A stretch of DNA of 64,000 bases. Origin: Botryobacter ruber. Lineage in GTDB: Bacteria; Bacteroidota; Bacteroidia; Cytophagales; Hymenobacteraceae. The position numbers and the translations under genes were made by a program. This document shows, piece by piece, positions 911 to 57,117 of the stretch. Location: NCBI RefSeq assembly GCF_003347595.2, contig NZ_QCZK02000022.1, positions 1 to 64,000 of the forward strand, given 5' to 3'. Under the pieces are notes generated by a model that saw only the letters and a list, made by a program, of their open reading frames with translations, searched no databases and was not told the DNA's origin. Position 1 is the stretch's first letter. Each line of letters begins with the position of its first letter.

Positions 911-1056
911 CCTCGCAGCGTCTTCAAGACCTGCGAGCGTCTTGTCCGCTACAAAGCAGCAGAGGCAATGGTGGCTGCTGCAGCAAAGTGAAATGCGTTA
1001 AAAATGCCATAGTAGCTGCCAGCGAAACGCTCGCAGGTCTTGAAGACGCTGCGAGG
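911..1056. repeat. 29-bp perfect inverted repeat around a REP-like element
   Basis: Positions 911-939 are the exact reverse complement of 1028-1056. Each arm is itself near-palindromic (CTCGCAG ... CTGCGAG around GTCTTCAAGAC) and can fold alone. The roughly 90 bp between the arms hold one copy of the dispersed G/C-skewed repeat. The structure lies between two genes that converge on it. It looks like a small non-autonomous element or a convergent-gene terminator. Confidence 0.75.
956..987 (+). repeat. Dispersed REP-like repeat, single copy
   Basis: Reads GCAGCAGAGGCAATGGTGGC followed by TGCTGCAGCAAA. It matches the consensus core GCAGWGGCWATGGTGGC found at about 17 intergenic sites in the window. 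It sits in the loop of the 911-1056 inverted repeat. Confidence 0.7.
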
Positions 1057-1067
1057 TTTTTGCAAAG

Positions 1068-1805
1068 TCAGGCTTTTGCCGACAGCACCTGCCCAAGCGG
1101 GTCTGCCCCATGCCAGGTGCCTTCGCTGGCGACGGGAGCGAAGCGGGCGAAAAGTTCTTCGGAATACCAGTTTTCCAGGCGGGTTCGTTTGATCACCTCC
1201 TGGTGCGAACGCTGGCGGTAAGCGTACGCCTTCATCGCCTCCACCGACTCCCACACACTGAACGTTGCCTGCCGCACCAAGGGAAGCTCGCCTAATCCGA
1301 TGGAACAAAGCAATCCTTCGGCCTGGTCGAGAGCTTTGGTAGTTTGGAGGCCGAAGCGCAGGAAGCCGGGTAGCGCCAGCCAGTTCACGCTGGCACGTGT
1401 CAGCACAGCCACGGGTCCGACTGCGGGTGGTGCAGCCAGAACGGGCTCGAAAGGCGTTTTCTTATCCCAATAGCCGTGTGACTGCAGCGGGTACATGCGC
1501 AGTGTCCAGGTTTCATAGGTGTGCTGCCGGTACGTCTGCATCAGCTCCGAATCGTACAGAAAAGCGTTTGCTGCTGCTTCGCTTTCCCAGGTGCACAGCA
1601 GGCCATAGCGCCCGAAGTCCGGCAAAATGCTGAAGGCTTTCCCTTTCCCGCTGCCCATCAGTTTGTAGAACAGCAGGCCGGGCACCTGGTTCAGGAGGGG
1701 CGGGGAAGTTCCCATCTGCGCCAATCCCCACCGCATATGTCCCTTCCTGATGCCGAAGAGGGTGAGGGTGGTTAAGCGGGCAGCGTTTGGTTCTGGTGTT
1801 TGCAA
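1068..1805 (-). CDS. Spheroidene monooxygenase (CrtA)-like protein
   Basis: The protein contains LLNQVPGLLFYKLMGSGKG, LCTWESEAAANAFLYDS, PVAVLTRASV and a C-terminal RTRLENWYSEELFARF, a pattern I recognise from CrtA-like proteins. CrtA itself inserts keto groups into carotenoids. The frame is open from ATG 1871, but that start lies inside the terminator of the upstream gene (1823-1860). TTG at 1805 is therefore preferred (245 residues), and a later start at LTTLTLF cannot be excluded. No other carotenoid gene is nearby, so the substrate is unknown. Confidence 0.65.
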   Translation of the reverse strand: MQTPEPNAARLTTLTLFGIRKGHMRWGLAQMGTSPPLLNQVPGLLFYKLMGSGKGKAFSILPDFGRYGLLCTWESEAAANAFLYDSELMQTYRQHTYETWTLRMYPLQSHGYWDKKTPFEPVLAAPPAVGPVAVLTRASVNWLALPGFLRFGLQTTKALDQAEGLLCSIGLGELPLVRQATFSVWESVEAMKAYAYRQRSHQEVIKRTRLENWYSEELFARFAPVASEGTWHGADPLGQVLSAKA

Positions 1806-1822
1806 GGGTTTAGATCTGGTTT

Positions 1823-1860
1823 CACAAAAACACCTGCCCGGCTTTGAGGCAGGCAGGTGT
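1823..1860 (-). terminator. Rho-independent terminator of the PNPOx-fold gene
   Basis: On the minus strand ACACCTGCC (1860-1852) pairs with GGCAGGTGT (1838-1830), followed by TTTTTGTG at 1830-1823. It lies 24 nt past the stop of the gene at 1884-2384 and helps to place the start of the next gene downstream of it. Confidence 0.75.
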
Positions 1861-1883
1861 GATAGCAGCAAATATAGCAGGTG

Positions 1884-2384
1884 CTACAAATTTATTTTCC
1901 TGTTATCGCCGGGTTCGTAGCGCTCGCCTGTTACAACGGCTTTGGCTACGCCGATCAGGTGTACGACGGCACTGTTGGGCGAATCCCAGTACTCGGCATG
2001 GTCGATGGTTACTTTAATCAGGCCGATGTTGGGATCATCTTTTCCTTCCGGGAACCAGGCTTTCAGGGCAGGATTCCAGAGTTCGTCTATCTTAGCTTTG
2101 TCGCGGGATAGGGTGGCCCTTCCGGAAACCGACACATACAGGTTATCGCCTGGTTTGGCATAGCTCAGGTTTACATGCGAATCCTGTTTCAGTTCCTGCG
2201 ATTTGGCGGAGTCGTAGCCGGTAAAAAACCACAGCACGCCATCGTCTTTTGTTTCCATGGTGCGCATGGGCCTGCTGCGGAGCATACCGTCGGGTTCCTG
2301 CGTGGTCATCATGGCAATATCAATGTCTTTAATTTTATCTGTCAGCTTGCGCAGATTTTCTTGGGTATTCTGATCGTTATTCAT
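1884..2384 (-). CDS. Pyridoxamine 5'-phosphate oxidase-fold protein (general stress protein 26-like)
   Basis: A 166-residue protein with the split-barrel FMN-binding pattern of the PNPOx family: IAMMTTQEPDGMLRSRPM, DGVLWFFTGYDSAKSQEL, VNLSYAKPGDNLYVSVSG and a late YWDSP motif. This subgroup is usually called general stress protein 26 and is thought to bind flavin; it is not the vitamin B6 biosynthetic enzyme. The frame is open to 2474, but that extension is Arg/Thr-rich and unlike the family. ATG at 2384, 30 codons later, is the likely start. It ends in a good terminator. Confidence 0.8.
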   Translation of the reverse strand: MNNDQNTQENLRKLTDKIKDIDIAMMTTQEPDGMLRSRPMRTMETKDDGVLWFFTGYDSAKSQELKQDSHVNLSYAKPGDNLYVSVSGRATLSRDKAKIDELWNPALKAWFPEGKDDPNIGLIKVTIDHAEYWDSPNSAVVHLIGVAKAVVTGERYEPGDNRKINL

Positions 2385-2519
2385 AGCTTTCTGGTTTCTG
2401 TTTGTCAGTTTAGTACGCGTGCCTCTGCAAAGGGTTGGAACCGCAGGCGCACCGTGTCTTCCGCTTTTTAACAAATAATGCCGTATCTTGTTTAGGAATA
2501 CAGCTTAAACTATAATCGT

Positions 2520-3104
2520 TTGAATTACCTGGCACACATATTTTTATCCGGCGATGACGAGGAACTGCTGTTGGGCAATTTCATGGCCGATGCTGTAAAA
2601 GGCAAACAGGCAGCCCGTTATCCGGAAGGTATCACCAAAGGCATCCGGCTGCACCGCCTCATCGACACCTACACCGATACCCACCCGGTGGTGCATGAGA
2701 CGAAAGCGCGCCTGCGCCAGCGGTTCCGCAAATACGCCCCCGTGGTGGCCGACATGTACTTCGACCACTTCCTGGCCAGCCGGTTCAGTACCTATTCTCC
2801 TGAGCCGCTCGTCGAGTACACGCAGCGCGTGTACCAGCTCATCCACAGCAATTTTGAGCTACTGCCTCCCCGCATCCAGCACCTGTTCACGTACATGATG
2901 CGCCAGAACTGGCTCCTGTCTTACGCCGAAGTAGCTGGCATTGCCCGAGCCCTGGAAGGCATGAGCCGCCGCACCAGCTTCGCCTCCGGCATGGAACACG
3001 CCGCCGAAGAACTGCAGGAGAACTACGACTACTACGCCCACGACTTTACCGTCTTTTTCCCGGAGCTGATGGCGTATGTGGCGGAAGTGAAGGAGGGTTT
3101 GTAG
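2520..3104 (+). CDS. acpH: ACP phosphodiesterase (DUF479 family)
   Basis: A 194-residue protein starting MNYLAHIFLSGDDEELLLGN, with GIRLHRLIDTYTDTHP and VVADMYFDHFLA, the His/Asp-rich helices of the AcpH family. E. coli AcpH removes the 4'-phosphopantetheine group from acyl carrier protein. Length fits the family. The start is TTG at 2520; there is no in-frame ATG nearby and the N-terminus matches the family there. It is divergent from the PNPOx-fold gene. Family call is firm; activity is inferred. Confidence 0.82.
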   Translation: MNYLAHIFLSGDDEELLLGNFMADAVKGKQAARYPEGITKGIRLHRLIDTYTDTHPVVHETKARLRQRFRKYAPVVADMYFDHFLASRFSTYSPEPLVEYTQRVYQLIHSNFELLPPRIQHLFTYMMRQNWLLSYAEVAGIARALEGMSRRTSFASGMEHAAEELQENYDYYAHDFTVFFPELMAYVAEVKEGL

Positions 3105-3136
3105 GAGGAGAGGGTGTGGTGGGTGGTGCAGAGAAG
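3103..3136 (+). repeat. Degenerate REP-like repeat at the acpH stop
   Basis: AGGAGGAGAGGGTGTGGTGG followed by GTGGTGCAGAGAA is a worn copy of the dispersed repeat and begins at the acpH stop codon. The 265 bp from here to the next gene otherwise show only the -7 box at 3325. Confidence 0.4.
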
Positions 3137-3324
3137 ATTTTGGTGATGTGGAGGGCGAAATGTAATATTATGAATTTTACTGATTGATTTGGATAGATAG
3201 TATCTTATTGAAAGGCGGTAGAAGCAGCTATAAAGTGTCGAGTAGTTAACCCTTTGTTTGAGCTGATTCTGATCATAGTAATGAATTGTACGTTATGGTA
3301 CCGCCCCCTACAAATAAATTTTCC

Positions 3325-3332
3325 TAAATTTG
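3325..3332 (+). promoter_or_regulatory. -7 box (TAaaTTTG) for the restriction-modification pair
   Basis: TAAATTTG lies 37 nt before the ATG at 3370. The phylum-type -7 box suggests the island can be transcribed by the host sigma factor. No good -33 element is seen. Confidence 0.45.
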
Positions 3333-3369
3333 TCCACTAACTGGTTAAATCAAAAAGTTTAATTAAAAA

Positions 3370-3855: not shown

Positions 3856-3961
3856 ATTTGAATAATGCATAGTTGCTTTCATTGCTTTGAATAGTATCAC
3901 AATATCGTATGGTTAATAAGCTAAACTTCCAAGTTGACAGTAAATACATAAAAAAACAAAT

Positions 3962-9583: not shown

Positions 9584-9619
9584 GGAGCAGCAGTGGGCGT
9601 GGTGGCAGGTGCAGCAAAG
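9584..9619 (+). repeat. Dispersed REP-like repeat, single copy
   Basis: GGAGCAGCAGTGGGCGTGGT then GGCAGGTGCAGCAAAG. It lies between the divergent coiled-coil gene and thyA. Confidence 0.6.
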
Positions 9620-12756: not shown

Positions 12757-12850
12757 GGCAGGAGCAGCGGCAATGGTGACAGTAGCAGCAGAAAAAAAGT
12801 ACCTGTTTTTATTCACTGCCACAGCCACCATTGCCTTACCACCTGCTCAA
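12757..12850. repeat. Paired REP-like repeat (head-to-head)
   Basis: The left half at 12757-12797 (GGCAGGAGCAGCGGCAATGG and following) and the inverted right half at 12815-12850 (CACAGCCACCATTGCCTTAC) can fold into an imperfect hairpin. It sits between the convergent MBL-fold and DUF389 genes. The rest of the 300-bp gap holds no gene. Confidence 0.65.
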
Positions 12851-14888: not shown

Positions 14889-14923
14889 CAGGAGCAGAGG
14901 CAATGGTGGCAGGAGCAGTAAGG
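14889..14923 (+). repeat. Dispersed REP-like repeat, single copy
   Basis: AGGAGCAGAGGCAATGGTGG then CAGGAGCAGTAAGG, close to consensus. It lies between the ribF stop (minus) and the DUF389 start (minus), so it is in the 3' region of the ftsX-ribF run. Confidence 0.75.
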
Positions 14924-18660: not shown

Positions 18661-18695
18661 TGCTGCTGCACCAGCCACCACAGCCTCTGCTGCTC
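18661..18695 (-). repeat. Dispersed REP-like repeat, single copy (inverted)
   Basis: TGCTGCTGCACCAGCCACCA then CAGCCTCTGCTGCTC, the inverse of the consensus. It lies between the tamB stop and the ftsX promoter. Confidence 0.7.
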
Positions 18696-24754: not shown

Positions 24755-25222
24755 ATGGCGAAAGAAAAAGACAGGATAAAGAAGCACGTCAACATCGTGA
24801 ACCGGAAGGCGTCGTTCGAGTACCAGTTCCTGGAAAAATACGTGGCGGGCGTGATGCTGAAAGGCACCGAGATTAAATCGATTCGCGAAGGCAAGGTGAA
24901 CATGCAGGACGGGTATTGTGTTTTCCAAAACGGCGAACTGTGGCTGCACAACATGCACATTGCTACCTACACCGAAGGCACCCACTACAACCACGAGCCC
25001 ATGCGCACGCGCAAACTGCTGCTCAATAAAAAGGAGCTGCGAAAACTGGAGCGTGGAGCAGAGGAGCAGGGCGTCACCATCATCCCGATCCGGGTGTTCA
25101 TCAGCGACCGTGGTTTTGCCAAAGTAGAAGTAGCCCTGGCCCGCGGCAAAAAACTCTTCGACAAACGCGAAGACATCAAAGCCCGCGACGTGAAACGGGA
25201 AATGGACCGCAGCGGATATTAG
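24755..25222 (+). CDS. smpB: SsrA-binding protein SmpB
   Basis: A 155-residue protein with the family hallmarks NIVNRKASFEYQFLEKYVAGVMLKGTEIKSIREGKVNMQDGYC and YNHEPMRTRKLLLNKKEL, and a basic C-terminal tail KLFDKREDIKARDVKREMDR. SmpB brings tmRNA to stalled ribosomes for trans-translation. No tmRNA gene is seen in the window. Confidence 0.97.
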   Translation: MAKEKDRIKKHVNIVNRKASFEYQFLEKYVAGVMLKGTEIKSIREGKVNMQDGYCVFQNGELWLHNMHIATYTEGTHYNHEPMRTRKLLLNKKELRKLERGAEEQGVTIIPIRVFISDRGFAKVEVALARGKKLFDKREDIKARDVKREMDRSGY

Positions 25223-25497
25223 GAGTTTGGGAGTTTGGGAGTTAGAGAGTTTAGGAGGTAGAAAGGTAGAAAGGTAGAAAGGTAGGGGTTGAAGATATTC
25301 AATCCTGTAGCAGAGAGGTAGAGAGGTTAAGGGTATGGCTGTAGAGACGCGGTGCCCGCGTCTCCTGCACGAACCACGGACAAATCCAATCAATCCTGTT
25401 ATTCCTTAAATCTTCTTAATCGTGTTCAGACAACCCCAATCCTGAAAATCCTAAAATTCCGTAAATCCTGATTCAGACAAAAAATCCCGGTACAGAC
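25222..25497 (+). repeat. Composite dispersed element, copy 1
   Basis: Ordered modules: GAGTTTGGGAGTTTGGGAG tracts; three GTAGAAAG repeats (25258-25285); a near-palindrome GGGGTTGAAGATATTCAATC; the hairpin GAGACGCGGTGCCCGCGTCTC (25343-25364); GAACCACGGACAAATCC; and alternating TTCAGACAA / AATCCTGAAAATCC units. The same modules in the same order occur inverted at 39850-40140. It begins right after the smpB stop and contains no gene. Confidence 0.85.
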
Positions 25498-25500
25498 AAC

Positions 25501-25592
25501 AGCAGTGGCTATGGTGGCAGGAGCAGAAACCTTTTTAGGATGAAAATGAAGTGAAATTACTTTGCTGCTCCTGCCACCATAGCCACAGCTCC
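25501..25592. repeat. Paired REP-like repeat (head-to-head)
   Basis: The left arm at 25501-25529 (AGCAGTGGCTATGGTGGCAG, GAGCAGAAA) and the inverted right arm at 25562-25592 form a stem of about 27 bp with two or three mismatches around a 33-nt loop. It directly precedes the coiled-coil gene at 25616. Confidence 0.8.
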
Positions 25593-25615
25593 TGCGTTTT
25601 ACTTAAATAGACCTC

Positions 25616-27616: not shown

Positions 27617-28111
27617 ATGAGAGAAAAAGTACTTATTCTGAACCAGGATTACAGTGCTATCGCGGTATGCACTGTGCAGAAAGCCTTTGTGCTGGTGTAC
27701 CTGGATAAAGCGGAACTTGTGTCTAAAGCAAATGGCTCCCTGTTGCACACTGTCAGCAAAGCGTATCCTGTTCCTTCGGTTATCAGGCTGCAGCGCTACG
27801 TGCGGGTGCCGTACTACGGCATTTCCATGAGCCGCCACAACGTGCTGCGCCGCGACAACTTCACCTGCCAGTACTGCGGCACCGGCAAAAACCTCACCCT
27901 CGACCACGTGATGCCCCGCTCCCGTGGCGGCGAAACCAGCTGGTACAACCTGGTGGCAGCCTGCATGCGCTGCAACACCCGCAAAGGCGACCGAACCCCC
28001 GAAGAAGCCGGCCTCAAACTCCTCCGGAAACCCCGGCGCCCCTCGCTCCACTCGTTCCTGCAACAGCACCTCAACGCCGATAACGAAGACTGGCAACTGT
28101 ACCTGCATTAG
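27617..28111 (+). CDS. HNH endonuclease family protein
   Basis: A 164-residue protein with a C-terminal HNH fold: CQYCG...LTLDHVMPRSRGGETSWYNLVAACMRCNTRKGDR. Two CxxC pairs bind zinc and the LDHVMPRSRGG His is the catalytic candidate. The N-terminal part (VLILNQDYSAIAVCTVQKAFVLVYLDKAEL) is typical of a widespread chromosomal family, not of homing enzymes. ATG 27617 is preferred to 27593 because the family starts there. The role is unknown. Confidence 0.82.
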   Translation: MREKVLILNQDYSAIAVCTVQKAFVLVYLDKAELVSKANGSLLHTVSKAYPVPSVIRLQRYVRVPYYGISMSRHNVLRRDNFTCQYCGTGKNLTLDHVMPRSRGGETSWYNLVAACMRCNTRKGDRTPEEAGLKLLRKPRRPSLHSFLQQHLNADNEDWQLYLH

Positions 28112-28333
28112 TAGGGGTATCCTTTACGGGTACCCAATCGTTGATGATCACCCGTATTCAAGCATTTCAACAAGATTCATTTTTCGCACCTTCACGGGTA
28201 CCCAATCGTTGATGAACACCCATCATTTAACTAAAATAAATTTCGCCTGCTGCATATAAAAAAAATGCTGCATGTAAGAATGGAACTTTCCACCTCCTCC
28301 ATAACGATTGGGTACCCGTAAAGGGCACCCCTA
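28111..28333. repeat. MITE-like element with 32-bp terminal inverted repeats
   Basis: The left end (GTAGGGGTATCCTTTACGGG then TACCCAATCGTT, 28111-28142) is matched by the inverted right end at 28302-28333 with about two mismatches. An internal direct copy of ACGGGTACCCAATCGTTGAT begins at 28195. About 220 bp long, no coding potential, in the gap between the HNH gene and rpsA. Confidence 0.75.
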
Positions 28334-28404
28334 CAACTTCTAAAATCACGCCCGCCTGATAACAAATACCTTGTAACTAATAATTAAATACCAGGAAAAT
28401 TTCT

Positions 28405-28412: not shown

Positions 28413-28518
28413 CGCCTTCATTCGGGTGAATGGCGCTGCTGTAAAAAGCAGTGAATGTAAAACTAAACCAAACCGGCCTATTGCTCTACGCCGGTGGCTT
28501 CAACAGAGCAGCAGTACT

Positions 28519-30414
28519 ATGAGTAATTCTCCAGATAATTTTGATTGGGACAAATTTGAATCCCAGGGTTTCGGCGGCGGCTACAGCAAAGCAGAGAAAG
28601 CCGAAATGGAAAAAATGTATGACGACACCCTGACTACCGTACAGGAGCAGGAGGTTGTTACCGGAACTGTTGTAGGTATCACCGACCGTGACGTGATCCT
28701 GAACATCGGTTTCAAATCTGATGGCCTGGTGCCGGTTTCAGAATTCAGGGACCTGCCTGACCTGAAAGTAGGCGACGAGGTTGAAGTATTTATCGAAGAC
28801 CAGGAAGATCCGAACGGTCAGCTTATCTTGTCCCGCAAGAAAGCGAAAATCGTTAGCGCCTGGGCTAAGATCTACGATGCGCTTGAGAACGACAAAGTTC
28901 TGGAGGGTGTTGTTAAGCGTAGAACAAAAGGTGGTCTTATCATCGACATCCACGGTGTAGAAGCCTTCTTGCCAGGTTCACAAATCGACGTGAAGCCAAT
29001 CCGCGACTTCGACGTGTTTGTAGGCAAGAAAATGGAAGTGAAAGTGGTGAAAATCAATGCCGCTTTCGACAACGTGGTTGTATCGCACAAAGTACTTATC
29101 GAGAAAGACCTCGAGCAGCAGCGTGCCGCCATCCTGAACAACCTCGAAAAAGGTCAGGTACTGGAAGGCGTTATCAAGAACATGACAAACTTCGGTGTGT
29201 TCATCGACCTTGGTGGCGTAGACGGCCTGTTGCACATTACAGATATTTCATGGGGACGTATCAACCACCCGGAAGAAGTATTGCAGCTTGACCAGAAAGT
29301 GAACGTGGTAGTGCTTGACTTCGACGACGACAAGAAGCGTATCTCCCTGGGTATGAAGCAGCTTACGCCGCACCCATGGGATGCCCTGCCTGCCGACATC
29401 GAAGTTGGTTCTAAAGTAAAAGGTAAGATTGTAAACGTGGCTGATTACGGTGCATTCCTGGAAATCATGCCTGGCGTTGAAGGTCTGATCCACGTTTCTG
29501 AAATGAGCTGGTCGCAGCACCTGCGCAACCCGCAGGACTTCATCAAGCAAGGCGACGAGGTAGAAGCAGTAGTGCTGACACTGGACCGCGATGAGCGTAA
29601 AATGTCGCTGGGCATTAAGCAGCTGACCGAAGATCCATGGACGAAGCAGGATGTACTGACGAAATACGCTGTAGGCACCAAGCACACAGGTATCGTTCGT
29701 AACCTGACAAACTTCGGCCTGTTCCTGGAACTGGAAGAAGGCGTTGACGGCCTGGTACACGTTTCTGACCTGAGCTGGACCAAAAAAATCAAGCATCCTT
29801 CTGAGTTCGTGAAAGTTGGCGACAACCTGGACGTAGTGGTGCTGGAGCTGGATGTTCCTAACAGAAGATTAGCCCTTGGCCATAAGCAACTGGAAGAAAA
29901 CCCTTGGGATACGTTTGAGTCTGTATTCAACGTAGGTTCTGTACACAAAGCTACTGTACTGGAGAAATCTGACAGAGGCGCTGTACTGGAACTGCCTTAC
30001 GGCATCGAAGGTTTTGCATTCCCGAAAGGACTTGCCAAAGAAGACGGTTCTACGGTAGAAGCCGGCGAAAGCTTAGACTTCAAAGTAGTGGAATTCTCTA
30101 AAGAAGACCGTAAAATCATTCTTTCGCATGCTGCCACTTACGGCGAAGCTGAAAATGCCCGTATAGCGAAAGCTACGAAGAAAGCCCAGCCGGCTGCCCC
30201 TGCTGCACAAAAAGAAGCCAAAGCGCCTAAAGTGCAGAAAGAAGCTGAGAAGTCTACACTGGGTGACCTGGATGCCCTCTCTGCCCTGAAAGAGCAGATG
30301 ATGGAAAACGAGAAAGAAGCCGGTGTGAAGAAACTGGAAGCTGCTGCTGCTAAAAAAGCACAGGAGTCTGAAGGTGCTGAAGGCGAAGCTTCTGAAGAAG
30401 AAGATAAAGCTTAA
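28519..30414 (+). CDS. rpsA: 30S ribosomal protein S1
   Basis: A 631-residue protein made of S1 RNA-binding domains, for example GVIKNMTNFGVFIDLGGVDGLLHITDISW, GKIVNVADYGAFLEIMPGVEGLIHVSEMSW and GIVRNLTNFGLFLELEEGVDGLVHVSDLSW. S1 binds mRNA on the small subunit. The N-terminus is acidic (MSNSPDNFDWDKFESQGFGG) and the C-terminus is a long Ala/Glu/Lys tail. The frame is open to 28426, but ATG 28519 is at the family start. It ends in a strong terminator. Confidence 0.96.
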   Translation: MSNSPDNFDWDKFESQGFGGGYSKAEKAEMEKMYDDTLTTVQEQEVVTGTVVGITDRDVILNIGFKSDGLVPVSEFRDLPDLKVGDEVEVFIEDQEDPNGQLILSRKKAKIVSAWAKIYDALENDKVLEGVVKRRTKGGLIIDIHGVEAFLPGSQIDVKPIRDFDVFVGKKMEVKVVKINAAFDNVVVSHKVLIEKDLEQQRAAILNNLEKGQVLEGVIKNMTNFGVFIDLGGVDGLLHITDISWGRINHPEEVLQLDQKVNVVVLDFDDDKKRISLGMKQLTPHPWDALPADIEVGSKVKGKIVNVADYGAFLEIMPGVEGLIHVSEMSWSQHLRNPQDFIKQGDEVEAVVLTLDRDERKMSLGIKQLTEDPWTKQDVLTKYAVGTKHTGIVRNLTNFGLFLELEEGVDGLVHVSDLSWTKKIKHPSEFVKVGDNLDVVVLELDVPNRRLALGHKQLEENPWDTFESVFNVGSVHKATVLEKSDRGAVLELPYGIEGFAFPKGLAKEDGSTVEAGESLDFKVVEFSKEDRKIILSHAATYGEAENARIAKATKKAQPAAPAAQKEAKAPKVQKEAEKSTLGDLDALSALKEQMMENEKEAGVKKLEAAAAKKAQESEGAEGEASEEEDKA

Positions 30415-30529: not shown

Positions 30530-30564
30530 TCTGCTGCACCTGTCACCAGAGCCACTGCTCCCCG
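30530..30564 (-). repeat. Dispersed REP-like repeat (inverted) in a 450-bp gap
   Basis: CTGCTGCACCTGTCACCAGA then GCCACTGCTCC, inverse orientation. It lies between rpsA and the small membrane protein gene at 30864. The remaining 300 bp of this gap are AT-rich and show no gene or clear promoter. Confidence 0.55.
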
Positions 30565-31200: not shown

Positions 31201-31220
31201 TCTGTGTTTATGGTAGCGTG

Positions 31221-31346
31221 CTATTTTCCTGTTGTAGTGCCGGTAGTTGTTCCAGTAGTAGTACCCATGGTTGTGCCAGTAGTTGTTCCAGTAGTTGTAC
31301 CCATGGTCGTGCCGGTAGTGGTGCCCGTGGTAGTACCCATTCCGGT
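31221..31346. repeat. Coding minisatellite, period 36 bp
   Basis: About three copies of a 36-bp unit made of 12-bp sub-units encode GTTTGTTTGTTM at the C-terminus of the EF-hand lipoprotein. Copies differ at third positions, so the array is not brand new. Copy number may vary between strains. Confidence 0.7.
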
Positions 31347-31907
31347 GCCATAGTACCTGTTGTACCTGGTGTTGTACTCGTCCGTTGTAATTTTATTGTC
31401 ACGGTCGGTGTCCCAGGTGCTGAATACTCCTTCAGAATATTCCCGCTCATCCAGCTTCTTGTCGCTGTTTTTATCCCAGGTACTGAAGTTGTTATTTTTA
31501 GCTGCCCCGGTGCGGAATTCTTTTTTATCCAGCTTTTTGTCTTTATTCGTATCCCAGTCGGCCCAGTTCTGGTTTGTCATGCCGTAGTCTCTGGTAGCAG
31601 TACTCCATTCTTCTTCCTCCAGTATATCGTCATCATTCACATCCCAGGTACCGTAGTAGCTTTCGTAGTATTCATCTTCGTCAAGGAAGTTATCATCATT
31701 TGCATCCCATCCGCCAAAACGACCGCTTTCCGTAAACGACTGGTTAAAACGCTCGGTGTCCCAGTCAGTTTCCATCTCGGTTTCTTCTTCCATCATGGCT
31801 GTTTCGTCCATTGTGTCGGTTTCTTCAACTCTTTCTGTACCATCGCCACAGGCTACCAGGCCGGTTACCAGGAAAGTGCACAAACCAATGGTCAAATACT
31901 TTCTCAT
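31221..31907 (-). CDS. EF-hand lipoprotein with Gly/Thr repeat tail
   Basis: A 228-residue protein. A lipobox (LVTGLVAC, Cys at residue 20) marks export and lipid anchoring. After an acidic Met/Glu/Thr stretch come five EF-hand loops: DANDDNFLDEDE, DVNDDDILEEEE, DTNKDKKLDKKE, DKNSDKKLDERE and DTDRDNKITTDE. They keep positions 1, 3, 5 and 12 but lack the usual Gly at 6. The C-terminus is a 12-residue repeat (GTTTGTTTGTTM). The frame is open to 31928, but ATG 31907 gives a normal signal peptide. Calcium binding is inferred. Confidence 0.82.
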   Translation of the reverse strand: MRKYLTIGLCTFLVTGLVACGDGTERVEETDTMDETAMMEEETEMETDWDTERFNQSFTESGRFGGWDANDDNFLDEDEYYESYYGTWDVNDDDILEEEEWSTATRDYGMTNQNWADWDTNKDKKLDKKEFRTGAAKNNNFSTWDKNSDKKLDEREYSEGVFSTWDTDRDNKITTDEYNTRYNRYYGTGMGTTTGTTTGTTMGTTTGTTTGTTMGTTTGTTTGTTTGK

Positions 31908-32046: not shown

Positions 32047-32080
32047 ATTGCTGCTCCTGCCACCACAGTCTCTGCTCCTG
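32047..32080 (-). repeat. Dispersed REP-like repeat, single copy (inverted)
   Basis: ATTGCTGCTCCTGCCACCAC then AGTCTCTGCTCCTG. It lies upstream of the EF-hand gene and just past the terminator of the 80-residue protein gene. Confidence 0.65.
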
Positions 32081-34628: not shown

Positions 34629-34712
34629 ATTGCCTGAATCAGGAGCAACAGGATAAGACATATTAAACCACAATATCGTCTGTCATCCTGCTCCTGATTC
34701 AGGCAATTTTTT
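34629..34712 (+). terminator. Long terminator hairpin after Tyr/Arg-rich protein 3
   Basis: ATTGCCTGAATCAGGAGCA at 34629-34647 pairs with its inverse ending at 34707, extended by AGGAT/ATCCT with a 3-nt bulge, to a stem of about 23 bp. Six T follow at 34707-34712. The stem is far longer than a normal terminator. Confidence 0.85.
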
Positions 34713-34745
34713 CTGCACCCACTGCCACCATATCCTCTGCTGCAC
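34711..34745 (-). repeat. Dispersed REP-like repeat, single copy (inverted)
   Basis: TTCTGCACCCACTGCCACCA then TATCCTCTGCTGCAC. It directly follows the T-run of the terminator at 34629-34712. Confidence 0.6.
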
Positions 34746-37662: not shown

Positions 37663-38556
37663 TTAACGCGCCGAAGACTCAAACGCAGCTACTTTTTTGT
37701 AGAGCTTGCCTCTGTCGGCTTCGGAAGAAAGGAAAAGGGCTGTGCGGGAGCGGTTTGGTTGAGCAGATAACTCTGCGATAAGATCGGGTATGCCATCGCG
37801 GTCTATGTCGCCGGCCCAGTGCAGGACGTAGACGGAACCCGCCAGTTGCTCGTCCTGCGCCAGTACCTGTTCCAGCCTTTTGCCCTTCCTGGTACCTGAA
37901 ACTTTCCAGCCATAGTTGCTGTAGGCATAGGCGCTGCTATCAACCTGCATGCTGTCGCCAAAGGCCTGTATATGGTACTGCCTGTTTTTAAACGAGAGCA
38001 CAATTTCTTCGCCGGGCCGGATGATGTTTTTCGCAAATGCAGCCGTGTCTATGGTGGCGGCTTTGTAGCCAGGTAAGCCGGTAATAAACAACATGACGTT
38101 TGGCTCGTGTCCCGTTACTTCTCTGCCCGAGATTACTTTTTGGCCTGTGGCAGCCGCTGTCCGGGCATCAGCGACGGGGTCAAAAGCAGGTTTTACATCC
38201 AGGGTGGTCGGGCGAAGTTCGTAGCTGCCTTGCATGTCGAACAGCCCCAGCCACTGTTTCTTTTCCGCCCCCTGCCAAATCTCCTCTTTATGAAACACGC
38301 CCTCCAGCAGAATCTTTATTTTTGCAGCCGGTTCAGGCGTAAGCCCTGTCGTATCTACCGCATAGCTTTGCAAAGCAACCGAGTCCGGGATAATGTTTTC
38401 TGTTGCTGCCTCCTTTTCTTCTGCAGCAGAATCCATGGTTTCGGTGAGTAGCTCATGATCGGTAACGGGTTGCTCCGGGGTATCGGGCGCGGTATTGCAG
38501 CCAGGCAGGTAACAGAGCAGTAGCAGGAACAGGCAAAGTAAACGCAGGTTAGGCAT
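37663..38556 (-). CDS. Lipoprotein with a VCBS-like calcium motif
   Basis: A 297-residue protein with a lipobox (LLLCYLPGC, Cys at 20) and an acidic linker rich in Glu and Thr. A C-terminal DIDRDGIPDLIAEL motif, of the FG-GAP/VCBS repeat type, may bind calcium. No other family can be named. It is probably anchored in the outer or inner membrane and faces the periplasm. It lies downstream of dapA, separated by a terminator. Confidence 0.65.
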   Translation of the reverse strand: MPNLRLLCLFLLLLCYLPGCNTAPDTPEQPVTDHELLTETMDSAAEEKEAATENIIPDSVALQSYAVDTTGLTPEPAAKIKILLEGVFHKEEIWQGAEKKQWLGLFDMQGSYELRPTTLDVKPAFDPVADARTAAATGQKVISGREVTGHEPNVMLFITGLPGYKAATIDTAAFAKNIIRPGEEIVLSFKNRQYHIQAFGDSMQVDSSAYAYSNYGWKVSGTRKGKRLEQVLAQDEQLAGSVYVLHWAGDIDRDGIPDLIAELSAQPNRSRTALFLSSEADRGKLYKKVAAFESSAR

Positions 38557-39517: not shown

Positions 39518-39629
39518 ATCAAAACGCTACATCAGGACATGTGCCCTGCAAAGCTGCAAGATTATCTTTTTTTACCTTAAAAAAAACAGCTAATTACTAA
39601 ATGGTTAAATTGTTGTTTGCCTTACCTGC

Positions 39630-39727
39630 TCAGCAGCGGCTGTGGTGGGGGGTACAGCAGTTTTTCAGCCCCCATTTTTTAGCCCTAAACCCTTCTGCAC
39701 CAGCCACCACAGCCGCTGCTCCTGCCT
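39630..39727. repeat. Paired REP-like repeat (head-to-head)
   Basis: The left arm at 39630-39660 (CAGCAGCGGCTGTGGTGGGG, GGTACAGCA) and the inverted right arm at 39697-39727 (CACCAGCCACCACAGCCGCT, GCTCCTGCC) can form a stem of about 27 bp with few mismatches. It is the first of three repeats filling the 625-bp gap between dapA and the response-regulator gene. Confidence 0.8.
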
Positions 39728-39849: not shown

Positions 39850-40140
39850 ATGATTTTTTATTTGTCTGAACCAGGATTTACAGAATTTTAGAATTTTCAG
39901 GATTAGATTTGTTTGATCACGATTAAGAAGGTTTAAGAAATAACAGGATGGAATTTGTCTGTGGTTCGTACAGGAGACGCGAGCACCGCGTCTCTACAGA
40001 TCATGATACCCAACCTTTCTACCTCTCTGTAACAGGGTTGAAGATGTTCAACCCCTACAAAATTCCAACCTCTCTACCTCCTAAACTTTCTACCTTTCTA
40101 ACTTTCTAACTCCCAAACTTTCTAACTCCCAAACTCCCAA
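39850..40140 (-). repeat. Composite dispersed element, copy 2 (inverted)
   Basis: Read on the minus strand it has the same modules in the same order as 25222-25497: GGGAGTTTGGGAGTTAG tracts, GTAGAAAG units, GGGGTTGAACATCTTCAACC (here a better palindrome), GAGACGCGGTGCTCGCGTCTC, GAACCACAGACAAATTCC, CCTTCTTAATCGTG and AATCCTGAAAATTCTAAAAT. By eye the two copies are about 80% alike. It ends 3 bp before the response-regulator stop. Confidence 0.85.
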
Positions 40141-40142
40141 CC

Positions 40143-40880
40143 TCACTGAATATTATTCTCCTCCACCCACTTCAGGAACTGGTCTTTGTAGACTTCGCCT
40201 ATCGGGATTTCCTTGTTGCCGATGCGGATGCGGCTTTTTTCGATGCTGTCTATTTTCTGGAGCGCCACGATAAAGGAACGGTGCACACGCAGGAACTTGG
40301 ATGGGGGCAGTTTTTCCATCATTTTGTTCATCGAGAGCAGCGTGATGATCTTCTGATCTTTTGTCTGGATGATCACATAATCCTTCAGGCCCTCCACCCA
40401 CATGATGTCTTTAAAATCGACCCGGATGGTTTTGTAGTCTGCTTTTACGAACATGAACTCCTGCTCCGGAGCCGCCTGCTGCACCCGTACAGGGGTTTCG
40501 GGCACCTGCTTTACATGGTTATGCTGCAGCCGTTCCTGTGCCTTGTTCACGGCTTTAAAAAAGCGGTCGAAGGGGATGGGCTTGAGCAGGTAATCGACGG
40601 CATCCTGGTTAAAACCCTCCAGGGCGTAGTTGGGGTAAGCCGTCGTGAAAATGATGAGGGGCGGGTGCCGCAGGATGTTCAGCAGCTGAATACCCGTGAG
40701 CTCCGGCATTTCGATATCCAGGAACATGAGGTCTATCTGTTCTTCCTGCAGCACCTGCATGGCTTCGGTGGCACTGGAACAGGTTTTTACCAGTGTCAGG
40801 AAAGGCAGCTTTTTGGTGTAGCTTTCCAGTATATCGAGGGCAAGTGGTTCATCGTCAACGGCTAGGCAGCGGATCGTCAT
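40143..40880 (-). CDS. LytTR-family response regulator
   Basis: A 245-residue protein. The receiver domain has the acidic pair D9-D10 (AVDDEP), the phospho-acceptor D55 (LMFLDIEMPE) and the KP motif (LLKPIPFDRF). The C-terminal half is a LytTR DNA-binding domain (FMFVKADYKTIRVDFKDIMWVEGLKDYVII, KFLRVHRSFIVAL). ATG 40880 is preferred to 40946, which would extend into the kinase gene. It follows the kinase by 4 bp. Confidence 0.92.
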   Translation of the reverse strand: MTIRCLAVDDEPLALDILESYTKKLPFLTLVKTCSSATEAMQVLQEEQIDLMFLDIEMPELTGIQLLNILRHPPLIIFTTAYPNYALEGFNQDAVDYLLKPIPFDRFFKAVNKAQERLQHNHVKQVPETPVRVQQAAPEQEFMFVKADYKTIRVDFKDIMWVEGLKDYVIIQTKDQKIITLLSMNKMMEKLPPSKFLRVHRSFIVALQKIDSIEKSRIRIGNKEIPIGEVYKDQFLKWVEENNIQ

Positions 40881-42114: not shown

Positions 42115-42154
42115 AGTGCACTGCTGCTGCCACCACACCCTTTGCTGCTGCTGG
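42115..42154 (-). repeat. Dispersed REP-like repeat (inverted) in a 500-bp gap
   Basis: AGTGCACTGCTGCTGCCACC then ACACCCTTTGCTGCTGCTGG. The gap 41938-42438 otherwise holds the kinase promoter and, near its end, the hairpin at 42400-42431; no gene is seen. Confidence 0.55.
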
Positions 42155-45103: not shown

Positions 45104-45187
45104 GTGCGGACGGTGGTTGATCAGTATATCAAATGTAGCAAAATAGCCGTTGTTGTGTTGAATTTATTTATTCAAAGCTAAGTCAAA

Positions 45188-45284
45188 GGAGCAGTGGCTC
45201 TGGTGGCAGGAGCTGCAGTATTTTTTTGTTTCAGAAAGCTGGTTTTTTGTTCTGCACCCACAGCCACCATTGCCACTGCTCCTG
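45188..45284. repeat. Paired REP-like repeat (head-to-head)
   Basis: The left arm at 45188-45219 (GGAGCAGTGGCTCTGGTGGC, AGGAGCTGCAGT) and the inverted right arm at 45254-45284 (CACCCACAGCCACCATTGCC, ACTGCTCCTG) flank a T-rich loop. It lies between the YceI-like gene and the DUF4920 gene (both minus) and may end the former. Confidence 0.78.
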
Positions 45285-51858: not shown

Positions 51859-52068
51859 AAGGCTTACAGGTTAAGGTTTAACCGATTTTTTAACGCTTAC
51901 AGGTAAGCGCCAGGGCGAAGCTTTAGGTTATGTACGTGTAACAGCAAAAGTGTTTATATCATATGATGAAACTATAGCTCAAAAGCTATATGCTGCCGCT
52001 GCACACGGCTGCCTGTGTGGCAGTTCCGGTTTTTAAACTGCCCGCCCGCTGAAGCGGAGCCTGCGCCG

Positions 52069-52100
52069 GCAGCAGAGGCAATGGTGGCAGGAGCAGAAAG
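52069..52100 (+). repeat. Dispersed REP-like repeat in a 280-bp gap
   Basis: GGCAGCAGAGGCAATGGTGG then CAGGAGCAGAAAG, close to consensus, 40 bp past the stop of the C40 peptidase gene (minus). The same gap holds a perfect small hairpin TATAGCT-CAAA-AGCTATA near 51973-51990; nothing else is seen. Confidence 0.75.
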
Positions 52101-52138
52101 GAAAATACAGCTGCTACGGAAATGCTGCACAATGTCAG

Positions 52139-53514: not shown

Positions 53515-55320
53515 ATGCTTAAACAAAAACAGTTTGCTGTTCTTTTCCTGATTGCCTTTCTTTTTTTCTGTAATGTGGCAGCTACCCTGGCTGCTGACTT
53601 ACAGTATTTTCTTTCCATGCCTGAGCCCCATACCCATTACTTTGAGGTGGAAATTGAGCTGTCGGGGGCAAAAAAGAAGCACATCGATTACAAAATGCCG
53701 GTCTGGGCGCCGGGCTCTTATCTTATCCGGGAGTTTGCCAAAAATGTAGAAAGTTTTGATGCGACCAACAAAGCCGGCGAAGCGCTCCGGGCAGAAAAAA
53801 TCAACAAGAACACCTGGCGCGTGTACAGCAACAAAAGCGAAACGGTGCGTGTGCGCTATAAGGTGTATGCCTACGAACTGAGTGTCCGTACCAGCTACCT
53901 CGATGCCTCGCATGGCTATGTAAACGGTACCAGCGTGTTTATGTATCCTGAGGGGTACCAGCACCTGAACGGAACCCTGGAGGTGAAGCCTTACAACGGC
54001 TGGAGCAAAATTTCTACCGGACTGAAAAGCACCGGCCGCTTTACCTACACCTTTCCCGATTATGATATCCTGGCCGATTCGCCACTGGAAATAGGAAACC
54101 ACGAAGTGCTGACTTTTATGGCGGCAGGTGTGCCCCATGAAGTAGCACTTTACGGGCAGGGCAACTTTGAACCCGAGCGCCTGCTTGCTGATATGAAGAA
54201 GGTGGTGGAAGAGGCGGTAAAGATCTTTGGCGAGTTGCCTGTTGACCGCTATGTTTTTATTGTACACAACCTGCTTCGGGGCGGGGGAGGCCTGGAGCAT
54301 TTAAATTCGACAACGCTGCAAACAACCTACAACAGCTACAACACCGAGCGTGGTTATTCGGGCTTTATGGGCTTGGTAGCCCACGAATACTTCCACCTCT
54401 GGAATGTGAAACGGCTGCGTCCGGAACCGCTGGGGCCATTTAACTACGATGCAGAAAATTATACGACGTTGCTGTGGTTTTCGGAAGGCTTCACCAGTTA
54501 CTACGACGACCTCATTACACGCTGGGCCGGCATCATTTCGCCGGAGCGGTACCTGGAAATAGTTGCCGGAAGTATACATGCCGTAGAAAATACGCCCGGT
54601 AACAAAGTGCAGTCGGTGAGCGAAGCCAGTTTCGATGCCTGGATCAAATATTACCGCCCGAATGAGAACTCCAAAAATTCGGAAGTTTCTTATTACACCA
54701 AAGGCAGCATCCTGGCTCAGTTGGTGAATATGGAAATTATGGCTGCCACGAAGGGCGAGAAGAGTTTAGACGATCTGATGCGCTACATGTATGACCGGTA
54801 CTATAAAAAACTGAACCGTGGCTTTACCGAAGAAGAGCTGAAGGAAGCGATTGAAAAGCTGGCCGGTAAAAAAATGGATGACTTTTTCCGCGACTACGTG
54901 CATGGTACCAAAACACCCGACTACAACCGCTATTTTGAAGCTGCCGGCTTGCGGCTGGTTAACCTGAACCAGAACAGCCTGAACATTGACTGGGGAGCCT
55001 CTACCGCCATGGCCGACGGGAAGATGATTGTACGAAGTGTGAACAGGGGCAGCGGCGCCTGGGAAGGAGGCCTTAACGTGAACGATGAAATTGTAGCAAT
55101 AGAAGGCAGGAGAGTAACCGGTGATATCGGGGACCATCTGGCCGGCAGCACCCTGGGCGAGAAAGTAGACGTGCTGGTAAGCCGCGAGGGTGTGCTGCAA
55201 ACCCTGCAAGTGCCCATTCTCCAGGATAAAAGCCTGCGCTATCGCTTCGAGCGCGTGCCAAACCCGACAAAGCTCCAGCAGAAAATCTATAAGAAATGGC
55301 TTCAAACCGAAAGCATGTAA
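53515..55320 (+). CDS. M61-family metallopeptidase with PDZ domain
   Basis: A 601-residue secreted protein. A signal peptide (FAVLFLIAFLFFCNVAATLAA) is followed by a beta-rich N-domain (residues about 28-200). The zinc-peptidase domain has H290-E291-x-x-H294 in VAHEYFHLWNVKRLRP and the downstream Glu in LWFSEGFTSYYDDL. A C-terminal PDZ-like domain (GSGAWEGGLNVNDEIVAIEGRRV) lies at about 505-575. M61 enzymes are glycyl aminopeptidases; the substrate here is unknown. Confidence 0.93.
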   Translation: MLKQKQFAVLFLIAFLFFCNVAATLAADLQYFLSMPEPHTHYFEVEIELSGAKKKHIDYKMPVWAPGSYLIREFAKNVESFDATNKAGEALRAEKINKNTWRVYSNKSETVRVRYKVYAYELSVRTSYLDASHGYVNGTSVFMYPEGYQHLNGTLEVKPYNGWSKISTGLKSTGRFTYTFPDYDILADSPLEIGNHEVLTFMAAGVPHEVALYGQGNFEPERLLADMKKVVEEAVKIFGELPVDRYVFIVHNLLRGGGGLEHLNSTTLQTTYNSYNTERGYSGFMGLVAHEYFHLWNVKRLRPEPLGPFNYDAENYTTLLWFSEGFTSYYDDLITRWAGIISPERYLEIVAGSIHAVENTPGNKVQSVSEASFDAWIKYYRPNENSKNSEVSYYTKGSILAQLVNMEIMAATKGEKSLDDLMRYMYDRYYKKLNRGFTEEELKEAIEKLAGKKMDDFFRDYVHGTKTPDYNRYFEAAGLRLVNLNQNSLNIDWGASTAMADGKMIVRSVNRGSGAWEGGLNVNDEIVAIEGRRVTGDIGDHLAGSTLGEKVDVLVSREGVLQTLQVPILQDKSLRYRFERVPNPTKLQQKIYKKWLQTESM

Positions 55321-55345
55321 GCAAGCGTAAGAGCTTGTGCTGAAA

Positions 55346-55419
55346 CAATGGTGGCAACGGCAGCAAACAAAAACGGGGTTTAATTTACCATTTTTGTTTT
55401 GCTGCCGTTGCCACCATTG
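55346..55419. terminator. REP-derived bidirectional terminator
   Basis: CAATGGTGGCAACGGCAGCA plus AACAAAAA (55346-55373) pairs with its inverse at 55391-55419 with one bulged base, a stem of about 28 bp. The arms contain A-runs and T-runs, so the hairpin carries a T-tract in either direction. It lies between the convergent M61 and gdhA genes and is a paired copy of the dispersed repeat. Confidence 0.82.
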
Positions 55420-55455
55420 CTTTACCTGCTGGTTAACAGGAGTTACTTTCTTCGA

Positions 55456-56880
55456 TCAAGGGAAAATGCCCAGCGCTTCGTAGCTCACCCCGATTTTTTC
55501 GATCGCAGTCAGAAAAGCAGCTGTCCGGAGATCGGGAATTTCTTTGATGTCCATCACATCGCGTATCTCGTGGTAGGCATTGATCATCGTATCTTCCAGC
55601 CCGGAGCGGACCAAACTGATCTCGTCGGACCCCTGAATCAGAAACGACTTTTGCTGTTGGGTCATTTTTTTACCGGTTGATGATTCGATAGCGGATACCA
55701 GTCGCCGGTTGTTGGCTTCTTCTGCACGTTTGCCAATCCGCCCGAACCGTACGTTCGACAGGTTTTTCAGCCATTCAAAATAAGAAACCGTAACACCACC
55801 CGCGTTCAGGTACAAATCGGGCAGGATGATAACTTTGTTCTGCAGCAGAATTTGTTCCGCGTTTCGGGTAATGGGACCGTTGGCACCCTCTGCTATTATT
55901 TTTGCCTTGATGCGCGGCGCATTTTCAGAGGTAATCTGGTTTTCCAGCGCAGCCGGTATCAGGATATCGCATTCCTCTTCGAGTAAGGCAAGCGAGTTCT
56001 CGAAATTTTTGGCGTTCTTAAAGTCCAGGATAGATCCTGTATCCACGCGGTGGTGAAAGGCTTCTTTTACATCGATGCCGTTCGGGTCGAAGATGCCACC
56101 TTCCCGCTCGGCTATCCCGGTAATAATGGCGCCATCCTGCTGGCAGAAAAGGGCGGCATGGTAGCCCACATTACCCAGGCCCTGCACAATTACGTGTTTG
56201 CCTTCCAGTCCTTTTCCTTCCAGGCCTTTGCCCTTGAGCAGTTCCGTATCGCAGAGGCACTCCCGGATGCCGTAGTAAACGCCAAGCCCGGTAGCTTCCG
56301 CCCGGCCTCTGATGCCGCCCTGGCCAACAGGTTTACCCGTTACACAGCCCAGGGCATTGGGCTCTCCGTATTTAAAAGCCTGGTACGTATCTGCAATCCA
56401 GGCCATTTCGCGGCTGCCGGTGCCGTAATCGGGGGCAGGCACATCCACGGTCGGGCCAATCAGGTTACGTTTGATCAGTTCGGTGGCAAATCGCCGGGTT
56501 ACCTGCTCCAGCGTTTTTTTAGAGCTGGTGCGCGGGTTTATTTTCACACCGCCTTTTGCCCCTCCAAACGGAACATCTACCACGGCACATTTAAAGGTCA
56601 TGAGCGTTGCCAGCGCTTTTACCTCATCCTCATCTACCTGTACGCTGTAGCGGATACCCCCCTTAGACGGGAGCTTGTGCTGGCTGTGCTGCACTCTTAT
56701 TCCTTCGTAAACTTCAATTTTGCCATCTATTTCCACCGGAAAAGAAACTTTGTACACACTGTTGCACGCTTTAATCTGTGCTAAAATTCCCGGGTCTAAT
56801 CTGGAAAAGCTGGCTGCATAATCGTAAAACTGGTGGACACTGTTTAAGAATTTTGTTCCTTCGTCCTGATGGTTTGCCAT
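55456..56880 (-). CDS. gdhA: Glutamate dehydrogenase family (Glu/Leu/Phe/Val dehydrogenase)
   Basis: A 474-residue enzyme. The N-domain has GGIRYSVQVDEDEVKALATLMTFKCAVVDVPFGGAKGG with the catalytic Lys, and VDVPAPDYGTGSREMAWI. The Rossmann half has VIVQGLGNVGYHAALF and a late PDLYLNAGGVTVSYFEWLKN. It interconverts glutamate and 2-oxoglutarate with ammonia. A tandem GKGLE-GKGLE-GK insert stands just before the Rossmann strand. ATG 56880 is used; the frame is open 41 codons further but unlike the family. Confidence 0.93.
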   Translation of the reverse strand: MANHQDEGTKFLNSVHQFYDYAASFSRLDPGILAQIKACNSVYKVSFPVEIDGKIEVYEGIRVQHSQHKLPSKGGIRYSVQVDEDEVKALATLMTFKCAVVDVPFGGAKGGVKINPRTSSKKTLEQVTRRFATELIKRNLIGPTVDVPAPDYGTGSREMAWIADTYQAFKYGEPNALGCVTGKPVGQGGIRGRAEATGLGVYYGIRECLCDTELLKGKGLEGKGLEGKHVIVQGLGNVGYHAALFCQQDGAIITGIAEREGGIFDPNGIDVKEAFHHRVDTGSILDFKNAKNFENSLALLEEECDILIPAALENQITSENAPRIKAKIIAEGANGPITRNAEQILLQNKVIILPDLYLNAGGVTVSYFEWLKNLSNVRFGRIGKRAEEANNRRLVSAIESSTGKKMTQQQKSFLIQGSDEISLVRSGLEDTMINAYHEIRDVMDIKEIPDLRTAAFLTAIEKIGVSYEALGIFP

Positions 56881-57078
56881 AAATGATAGGTTTCGTTTGA
56901 GTTTGCTGATTTTAGAACGGTTACAAAAAGCTTTTGTTTTGCTCCGGACACAAAAGTCCCGTTTACCTGGTTGCCTGGTTCCAGGTGAAGCTACTGCATA
57001 CATCTACTGTTTTTGAGCAGAATGGTTCCGGGGATACCACAGAGGTTAGTTCAAGGTCGGGCGTTTTTTTCTCAAAAA

Positions 57079-57117
57079 GCAGGAGCAGAGGCTATGGTGG
57101 CAGGGGCAGCAGAAAAA
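57079..57117 (+). repeat. Dispersed REP-like repeat, single copy
   Basis: GCAGGAGCAGAGGCTATGGT then GGCAGGGGCAGCAGAAAAA, one of the best copies. It begins 42 bp past the ruvC stop on its downstream side. Confidence 0.75.

Follow-up and report, generated by a model that had tools for sequence, protein, structure and literature searches.

A dispersed motif with more than 1,000 copies in Botryobacter ruber that may work like a DNA uptake sequence

The motif in the window and in the genome

The 64,000-nucleotide stretch of Botryobacter ruber DNA analysed here (contig NZ_QCZK02000022.1, positions 1 to 64,000; hereafter the window) contains, scattered mostly between its genes, a short motif that a preliminary description had presented as a dispersed, strand-asymmetric family of about 17 copies resembling repetitive extragenic palindromic (REP) sequences. 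A dispersed, strand-asymmetric family was borne out, and its copy number is very high, with 21 copies at 16 sites in the window and 1,260 to 1,338 in the genome. Its features suggest a species-specific mark that builds up through stepwise substitution rather than a repeat that jumps. When the window was searched with the core GCAGWGGCWATGGTGGC, allowing up to 3 mismatches, 23 matches were obtained, whereas 100 dinucleotide shuffles gave 0.62 on average. A weight matrix with 33 columns (consensus AGGAGCAGAGGCTGTGGTGGCAGGTGCAGCAAA) gave 23 matches at a score of at least 15, comprising 21 copies at 16 intergenic sites and 2 weaker intragenic matches (625 and 38396), where genes were called approximately by a script of our own. 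All matches listed below were located with the matrix, and those that were also folded are marked.

955..987, plus strand: single intergenic copy, score 49.4
3103..3135, plus strand: copy overlapping a stop codon by 2 bases, score 40.7
9586..9618, plus strand: intergenic copy, score 45.2
12760..12792, plus strand: left arm of a head-to-head pair, score 43.7
12812..12844, minus strand: right arm of this head-to-head pair, score 30.0
14890..14922, plus strand: copy, score 46.6; folded alone, no better than shuffles (z -0.7)
18662..18694, minus strand: copy, score 49.6
25498..25530, plus strand: left arm of a pair, score 44.8; folded
25561..25593, minus strand: right arm of this pair, score 48.0; folded
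30530..30562, minus strand: copy, score 41.9, 115 bp past the stop codon of a gene whose last position is 30414 and which in our reading is S1-like, as its repeats suggest
32047..32079, minus strand: copy, score 45.7
34712..34744, minus strand: copy, score 32.8
39629..39661, plus strand: left arm of a pair, score 30.2
39691..39723, minus strand: right arm of this pair, score 47.9
42117..42149, minus strand: copy, score 40.2
45187..45219, plus strand: left arm of a pair, score 41.5; folded
45251..45283, minus strand: right arm of this pair, score 36.4; folded
52068..52100, plus strand: copy, score 44.4; folds weakly on its own (z -2.1)
55335..55367, plus strand: weak copy, left arm of a pair, score 26.1
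55398..55430, minus strand: right arm of this pair, score 32.6
57081..57113, plus strand: copy, score 50.0
625..657, minus strand: partial match within the gene at 226-885 (plus strand), score 27.2
38396..38428, minus strand: weak match within the gene at 37663-38556 (minus strand), score 21.5

The claim that all copies lie between genes holds for the 16 sites in the window, where the copy at 3103 touches a gene by two bases; it does not hold strictly, since 33 of 306 matches scoring at least 30 in 1.05 Mb of B. ruber DNA overlapped called genes and 273 lay outside them. The five head-to-head pairs that had been described were recovered (12760/12812, 25498/25561, 39629/39691, 45187/45251 and 55335/55398), and long stems formed in both of the pairs that were folded (25498/25561 and 45187/45251). 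No REP-type stem was seen in single units, whether in the consensus (z 0.25) or in two copies from the window (z -0.7 and -2.1), whose folds were weak. The arms of head-to-head pairs were no more alike than randomly chosen copies (24.8 vs 24.5 of 33, p 0.29, n=28), and the stems thus do not look maintained; selection for hairpins in the pairs was rejected on this ground. The window gave no match to Rfam at gathering scores.

Repeats of other kinds were also observed in the window. A perfect 31-bp inverted repeat, ACCTCGCAGCGTCTTCAAGACCTGCGAGCGT (910-940 and 1027-1057), similar to hairpin-type REPs, surrounds the copy at 955. A composite repeat containing short GAGTTTGGGAG-type units is present at 25214-25484 and again, inverted, at 39858-40161; one of the two adjoins a motif pair on its upstream side. 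Around GGGTACCCAATCGTTGATGA there are repeats in direct and inverted arrangement (28111-28334), and a tandem array with a 12-bp period was seen at 31210-31350.

The search was extended to the whole B. ruber genome (5.84 Mb in 62 contigs), in which 1,260 matches (623 forward and 637 reverse) were found at up to 2 mismatches, as compared to 9 for the reversed pattern. A pattern of 29 letters, allowed up to 3 mismatches, gave 1,338 matches (680 and 658 by strand), and its reversed form gave none. The density is about one copy per 4.4 kb. In any of 389 other genomes of the order, the 29-letter pattern had at most 5 matches; therefore, among the genomes searched, the high copy number is confined to the species of the window. 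A relative designated G026 had 5 matches, four of which were on one contig, C14. The genus was read as Pontibacter from the protein encoded at 28426-30414, whose best listed segments are 87-91% identical to proteins of named Pontibacter species. The 17-letter core had 0 to 21 matches in 58 other genomes (36 of them also of this genus) vs 0 to 16 for the reversed control, with several genomes somewhat above their own control (e.g. 21 vs 4 in G020). Relative to gene ends, copies were densest between convergent genes, at a median of 76 bp from the nearest 3' end; their orientation to the nearest gene end was balanced (110 same, 96 opposite), and 42 copies lay between divergent genes.

The DNA that follows the motif carries AT tracts in helical register. 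After 209 single copies, the AT fraction was 0.71-0.87 at +2 to +6, fell to 0.40 at +10/+11, rose to 0.66-0.70 at +14 to +16, fell to 0.45 at +21 and rose again to 0.61-0.65 at +24 to +26, with the first two tracts about 11.5 nt apart. Between +8 and +48 the oscillation had a period of 10.6 bp and an amplitude of 0.039, compared with a null maximum of 0.018 in 500. The spacings of head-to-head neighbours (29 pairs) fell at multiples of 10.4 bp (Rayleigh R 0.82, a value reached by 0 of 2,000 jittered sets); helical spacing was not significant for tandem (p 0.08, n=14) or tail-to-tail neighbours (p 0.68, n=7). On four B. ruber contigs, intergenic copies were placed more evenly than expected from random intergenic placement (coefficient of variation 0.52-0.64, null 0.90-1.00, p <=0.008); under a stricter null with one cluster per region, three of the four contigs remained at p <0.03 and contig c29 gave p 0.116. 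None of the four B. ruber contigs tested showed a strand bias, and on a 520-kb contig mostly of one GC-skew sign the copies were divided 89/74 by strand (p 0.27).

Copies within genes

A match was counted as within a gene if it was 90 bp or more away from the gene's ends, and the matrix used for such matches was built only from the 273 intergenic copies. In 847 kb of B. ruber genes there were 60, 52, 37, 28, 15 and 11 matches at scores of 8, 10, 15, 20, 25 and 30, respectively. At the same thresholds, 687 kb of genes sampled from G026 gave 1, 1, 0, 0, 0 and 0, and 456 kb sampled from three further relatives (G068, G006 and G022) gave a single match at 8 and none at 10 or above, the sampled genes of the four relatives totalling 1,143 kb. 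When 20 column-permuted matrices were run on the B. ruber genes, no match reached a score of 15. Because the scores of the B. ruber in-gene copies were themselves selected to be high, these counts serve as the fair control. Intergenic scores were not graded in this way: with an earlier matrix, 285 of 319 matches at 10 or above lay at 30 or above.

Alignment to orthologues was then used as a gap test. An orthologue was available for 17 of 48 in-gene sites (score at least 15), and 39 of 40 orthologue alignments had no gap within the motif, the orthologous DNA having a mean motif score of -23.2 to -26.5 by class. One instance is PrmC, whose B. ruber gene carries an 11-codon copy (score 48.5) read in frame as LSAAATTATAP. 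The alignment of this protein with 29 orthologues (30 loci of 50 genomes with a match) was gapless across the copy, in which 11 codons are exchanged at constant length and hardly any orthologue residue is retained. Several in-gene partial matches, in turn, retain orthologue residues where the motif permits. Linkage among 15 variable motif positions was local, with z >4 in 11 of 105 pairs, all of them at most 5 positions apart, which argues against copied subfamilies or haplotypes. In our judgement, these results give good support to the view that the motif enters genes by substitution and not by insertion, and this would hold independently of any role in DNA uptake. The gap test applies to copies in genes; the intergenic majority is outside its reach, given the distance of the relatives and the many other repeats that they contain.

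A different motif in the nearest relatives

The two nearest relatives, G026 and G068, are 87% identical to B. ruber over the S1 gene; one genome per species was compared. Each carries a motif of its own, AATTATTCTAATGAAAATGGCCCTCCGGAGGC in G026 and AATTATTCTAATGAAAATGGCCTTCCGAAGGT in G068, the two consensus sequences differing at positions 22 and 27. One pattern for this G026-type motif had 1,578 matches in G026 and 1,011 in G068, a looser pattern had 1,675 and 1,445, and B. ruber had 0; among 47 other Pontibacter, a single match was found, in one genome (G031). In G026, 4 of 308 copies of its own lineage's motif overlap genes. Its copies on three contigs agree with the even placement found for B. 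ruber under the random-placement null, and no helical pattern was seen by eye in the spacings of neighbouring copies. At several sites in G068 an extra word, TCAAGGGT, was observed about 20 bp downstream of the copy, at a place where G026 has a CTG-rich run.

Copies of the two relatives were compared across 70 orthologous gaps between genes. Both species had copies in 32 gaps, G068 only in 7, G026 only in 9 and neither in 22; the 32 shared gaps compare with 24.2 expected within gap-length classes, and 0 of 5,000 shuffles reached 32. Among matched copies, 25 had the same orientation and lay within 40 bp of equal distance from the anchor (null mean 10.6, maximum 19 of 500), and 5 had opposite orientation vs 10.5 in the null. 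The flanks of matched pairs scored on average 19.6 upstream vs 8.2 for random pairs (standard deviation 9.8) and 10.3 downstream vs 6.6 (standard deviation 6.3); taken singly, 1 of 25 pairs upstream and 2 of 25 downstream exceeded the 99th percentile. At 24 of the 25 matched pairs position 27 was A in G068 and G in G026, and at 19 of 25 position 22 was T and C, respectively. Random cross-species pairs gave the same pattern at these positions (0.88 and 0.84), so the dialect is genome-wide. Places and orientation are conserved beyond chance between G026 and G068, and the letters within the motif have turned over. Between B. ruber and G026, copies were associated at the level of gaps (odds ratio 6.2, p 0.0004), but gap length confounds this value, and neither the positions nor the orientations of the copies clearly corresponded.

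Copies of the B. ruber type in G026 were concentrated on contig C14 (128 kb). Three 20-kb stretches of this single contig (L166, L167 and L168; 60 kb), chosen because they contained B. ruber-type matches, held 7 copies of the B. ruber type and 1 of the G026 type at a score of at least 25, where about 21 of the G026 type were expected; the other 913 kb of G026 sampled held 0 and 319, respectively. Nine of 10 C14 proteins examined (of 22 listed) matched Pfam, mostly through carbohydrate-active domains, with one TonB-receptor plug and one ABC transporter. The stretches would fit the acquisition of a region for carbohydrate use from a lineage bearing the motif of the window. In Neisseriaceae, transferred elements have likewise been recognised by atypical distributions of DNA uptake sequences (DUS), as PMC7371117 describes.

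A k-mer search of 140 kb of G022 found no motif of comparable strength. In G006 (contig C1, 1000001-1140000), an over-represented word, AATTATGAATTA, was observed in 11 copies in 140 kb, possibly as a tandem repeat.

Weighing the explanations

The motif was compared with the uptake signal sequences (USS) of Pasteurellaceae and the DUS of Neisseriaceae. According to PMC1626085, USS are numerous without orientation bias, have a core followed on one side by AT segments about 12 nt apart (centred 12 positions apart in the Hin type), form subclade-specific types and, by a similar gap test, arise in Haemophilus by substitution and not as insertions; PMC7811141 describes their distribution as relatively even. 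B. ruber likewise showed over-representation without orientation bias, gapless in-gene alignments, an even distribution (not significant on c29 under the stricter null) and AT segments 3' of the motif, together with a weaker upstream signal; dialects were seen in G026 and G068. Neisserial DUS, too, are described as differing in dialect across the genomes of related species (PMC3630211). The differences are considerable. The motif occurs in another phylum, with a core of about 33 bp vs 9, at about 1 per 4.4 kb vs the approximately 1 per kb given for USS and DUS in PMC1626085. It is far rarer in genes, where the same source places 65% of H. influenzae USS in coding sequence, and the core of its nearest relatives looks unrelated; the neisserial dialects have common CTG and A positions in the account of PMC3630211, whereas the B. 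ruber and G026 motifs have no evident common core. A limited literature search (Cytophagales, Flavobacterium, Pontibacter) found no uptake-sequence system in Bacteroidota.

Based on these likenesses, it was hypothesised that the motif marks the genome as the species' own, in the manner of the USS of Haemophilus or the DUS of Neisseria, a proposal for which we hold confidence and doubt in equal measure. A sequence-biased step of DNA acquisition, most simply an outer-membrane receptor for transformation, would prefer fragments bearing the motif. Mutations that improve a site would then be favoured in recombination, and sites would build up by point substitution (molecular drive). Such drive would leave high-quality sites between genes and degraded ones within genes, and the combination of high-quality sites in free sequence and degraded sites in coding sequence is what drive against coding constraint predicts. 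If the receptor drifted, all sites would follow, giving dialects between species. Biased uptake with recombination drive could account for most of the observations without a fitness role of the sites, and modelling described in PMC7811141 indicates that uptake-sequence drive needs none. DNA uptake as the driving step, competence of the species and the existence of a receptor are our inferences. More tentatively, Bacteroidota may have independently evolved DNA self-recognition with a new receptor, and in one Pontibacter clade the motif may have been replaced wholesale between lineages, with more than 1,000 sites rewritten by molecular drive, so that each species would carry a long barcode of its own and foreign DNA would be recognisable by its dialect; here our doubts somewhat exceed our confidence.

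Several observations weigh against the uptake hypothesis. The motif letters at matched G026 and G068 pairs were no more alike than at random (22.1 vs 22.5 of 32, p 0.82), so that each copy may have been modified in place or renewed there; this slightly lowers the standing of uptake and raises that of overwriting, considered below. The G026-type motif was near-absent from genes and showed no graded excess there (2 in, 324 out at a score of at least 20), and it fits the uptake model less well than the B. ruber motif for this reason. Upstream flanks were also helical in AT (0.024 at 10.1 bp vs a null maximum of 0.015), and the helical phasing of neighbouring copies is not predicted or explained by uptake alone. 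The B. ruber motif is a long one of high strength (42.9 bits), and it is sparser than USS and DUS. Perfect copies were no more numerous than one-mismatch copies (65 and 90 in B. ruber with a 29-letter pattern; 47 and 90 in G026; 6 and 22 in G068), unlike the expectation for USS and DUS, although the comparison is loose because these patterns are longer than the USS core. A comparison of intergenic lengths with G026 as an insertion test was too noisy to be informative. ComEC was present in all five genomes examined, a finding that is not diagnostic as E. coli also matches, and the T2SSE/pilus ATPase family, the only family of type IV pilus machinery searched for, gave no match over the cut-off in the same five genomes. 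The lack of a pilus is not fatal to the uptake hypothesis, since Riemerella, of the same phylum, is described as competent without pilus homologues and as requiring ComEC, DprA, ComF and RecA together with proteins of unknown function (PMC8459023). Finally, on contig C46, a strong copy (score 50.6) lies some 0.65 kb past the 3' end of a broken gene for a REP-associated tyrosine transposase (RAYT), with two weaker matches (29.4 and 25.0) on the upstream side; such a neighbour is not surprising because there is one copy per 4.4 kb.

This broken gene, with motif matches on both sides, leads to the explanation offered in the preliminary description, namely that the copies are REP sequences or bacterial interspersed mosaic elements (BIMEs) mobilised by a RAYT. 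The resemblance to such units stands as regards high copy number, short length, mostly extragenic location and head-to-head pairs, and fails for the single unit, which has no palindrome or REP-type stem. The B. ruber genome has ten RAYT matches, of which seven fall short of the cut-off and three exceed it, one of these three with an in-frame TGA. RAYTs are described as always flanked by two inverted REPs (PMC2817692), whereas neither intact RAYT of B. ruber was flanked by inverted copies of the motif or had one within 1.5 kb. By eye, palindromic repeats of another kind adjoin the three genes over the cut-off, and one such hairpin folds fully. The reading of flanks covered these three genes and a weaker RAYT-like gene on contig C7, whose nearest copy is about 2 kb away; for two RAYT-like genes in G026, the nearest G026-type copy is 1.9-2.9 kb away. 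Together with the equal-length, gapless replacement in genes, the lack of subfamily linkage between motif positions and pair arms as unlike as random copies, these results led us to reject spread by a RAYT, the least probable of the explanations weighed. Transcription terminators or 3' UTR elements would suit the crowding of copies between convergent genes close to 3' ends; the single copies have no terminator stem, orientation to the nearest gene end is balanced, copies also lie between divergent genes and within genes, and this explanation was likewise rejected as very improbable. Chi and KOPS (FtsK-orienting polar sequences) are asymmetric motifs spread genome-wide that show strand polarity along the replichore; the present motif is much longer, mostly intergenic and without replication-linked strand polarity on the contigs tested, and an oriented motif of this type was rejected.

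Two further explanations were weighed. In one, the motif is written over short patches of sequence, without insertion, by a copying process such as template switching or retron-like single-stranded DNA. It is favoured by the PrmC copy, which retains almost no orthologue residue over its 11 codons, and by matched G026 and G068 copies being no more alike than random; it is opposed by the residues that several partial matches retain and by the lack of long-range linkage, hence of copied haplotypes, and we regard it as improbable. The main rival, which we consider unlikely on balance while taking it seriously, is that each site is selected as the binding site of an intracellular DNA-binding protein (a chromosome organiser, a gyrase-like wrapper, or a recombination or replication factor) of species-dependent specificity. 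Even spacing, helical AT tracts and the 10.4-bp phasing of head-to-head copies fit the wrapping or bending of DNA, this rival explains the phasing at least as well as uptake does, and G026 and G068 have copies in common by place and orientation. However, selection alone would have to carry more than 1,000 sites through a change of specificity and maintain degraded copies within many unrelated genes; strand polarity of the Chi or KOPS kind is lacking, and the region with the foreign motif in G026 is not specifically predicted.

The three RAYTs over the cut-off lie at L031 1780-2420, L032 1780-2090 and L033 1150-1400, and beside each there are palindromic repeats particular to it, such as GGCGCGAGCTTGCAGCTCGTGCC. 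A single Bacteroidota genome thus contains several RAYT/REP pairs.

If the uptake hypothesis is true, B. ruber and its relatives would add a case from Bacteroidota that arose independently and includes several dialects within a group of close relatives, and genome-wide drive of this kind would be seen to recur. The clade would serve as a natural experiment on change in a motif present at more than 1,000 sites, and would point to a new DNA receptor in a phylum with competence free of pilus homologues. Motif dialects would be a simple readout of recent gene transfer. A mechanism is called for even if something other than uptake drives the process, since the motif has more than 1,000 dispersed sites, differs in consensus genome-wide between close relatives and spreads into coding sequence by substitution.

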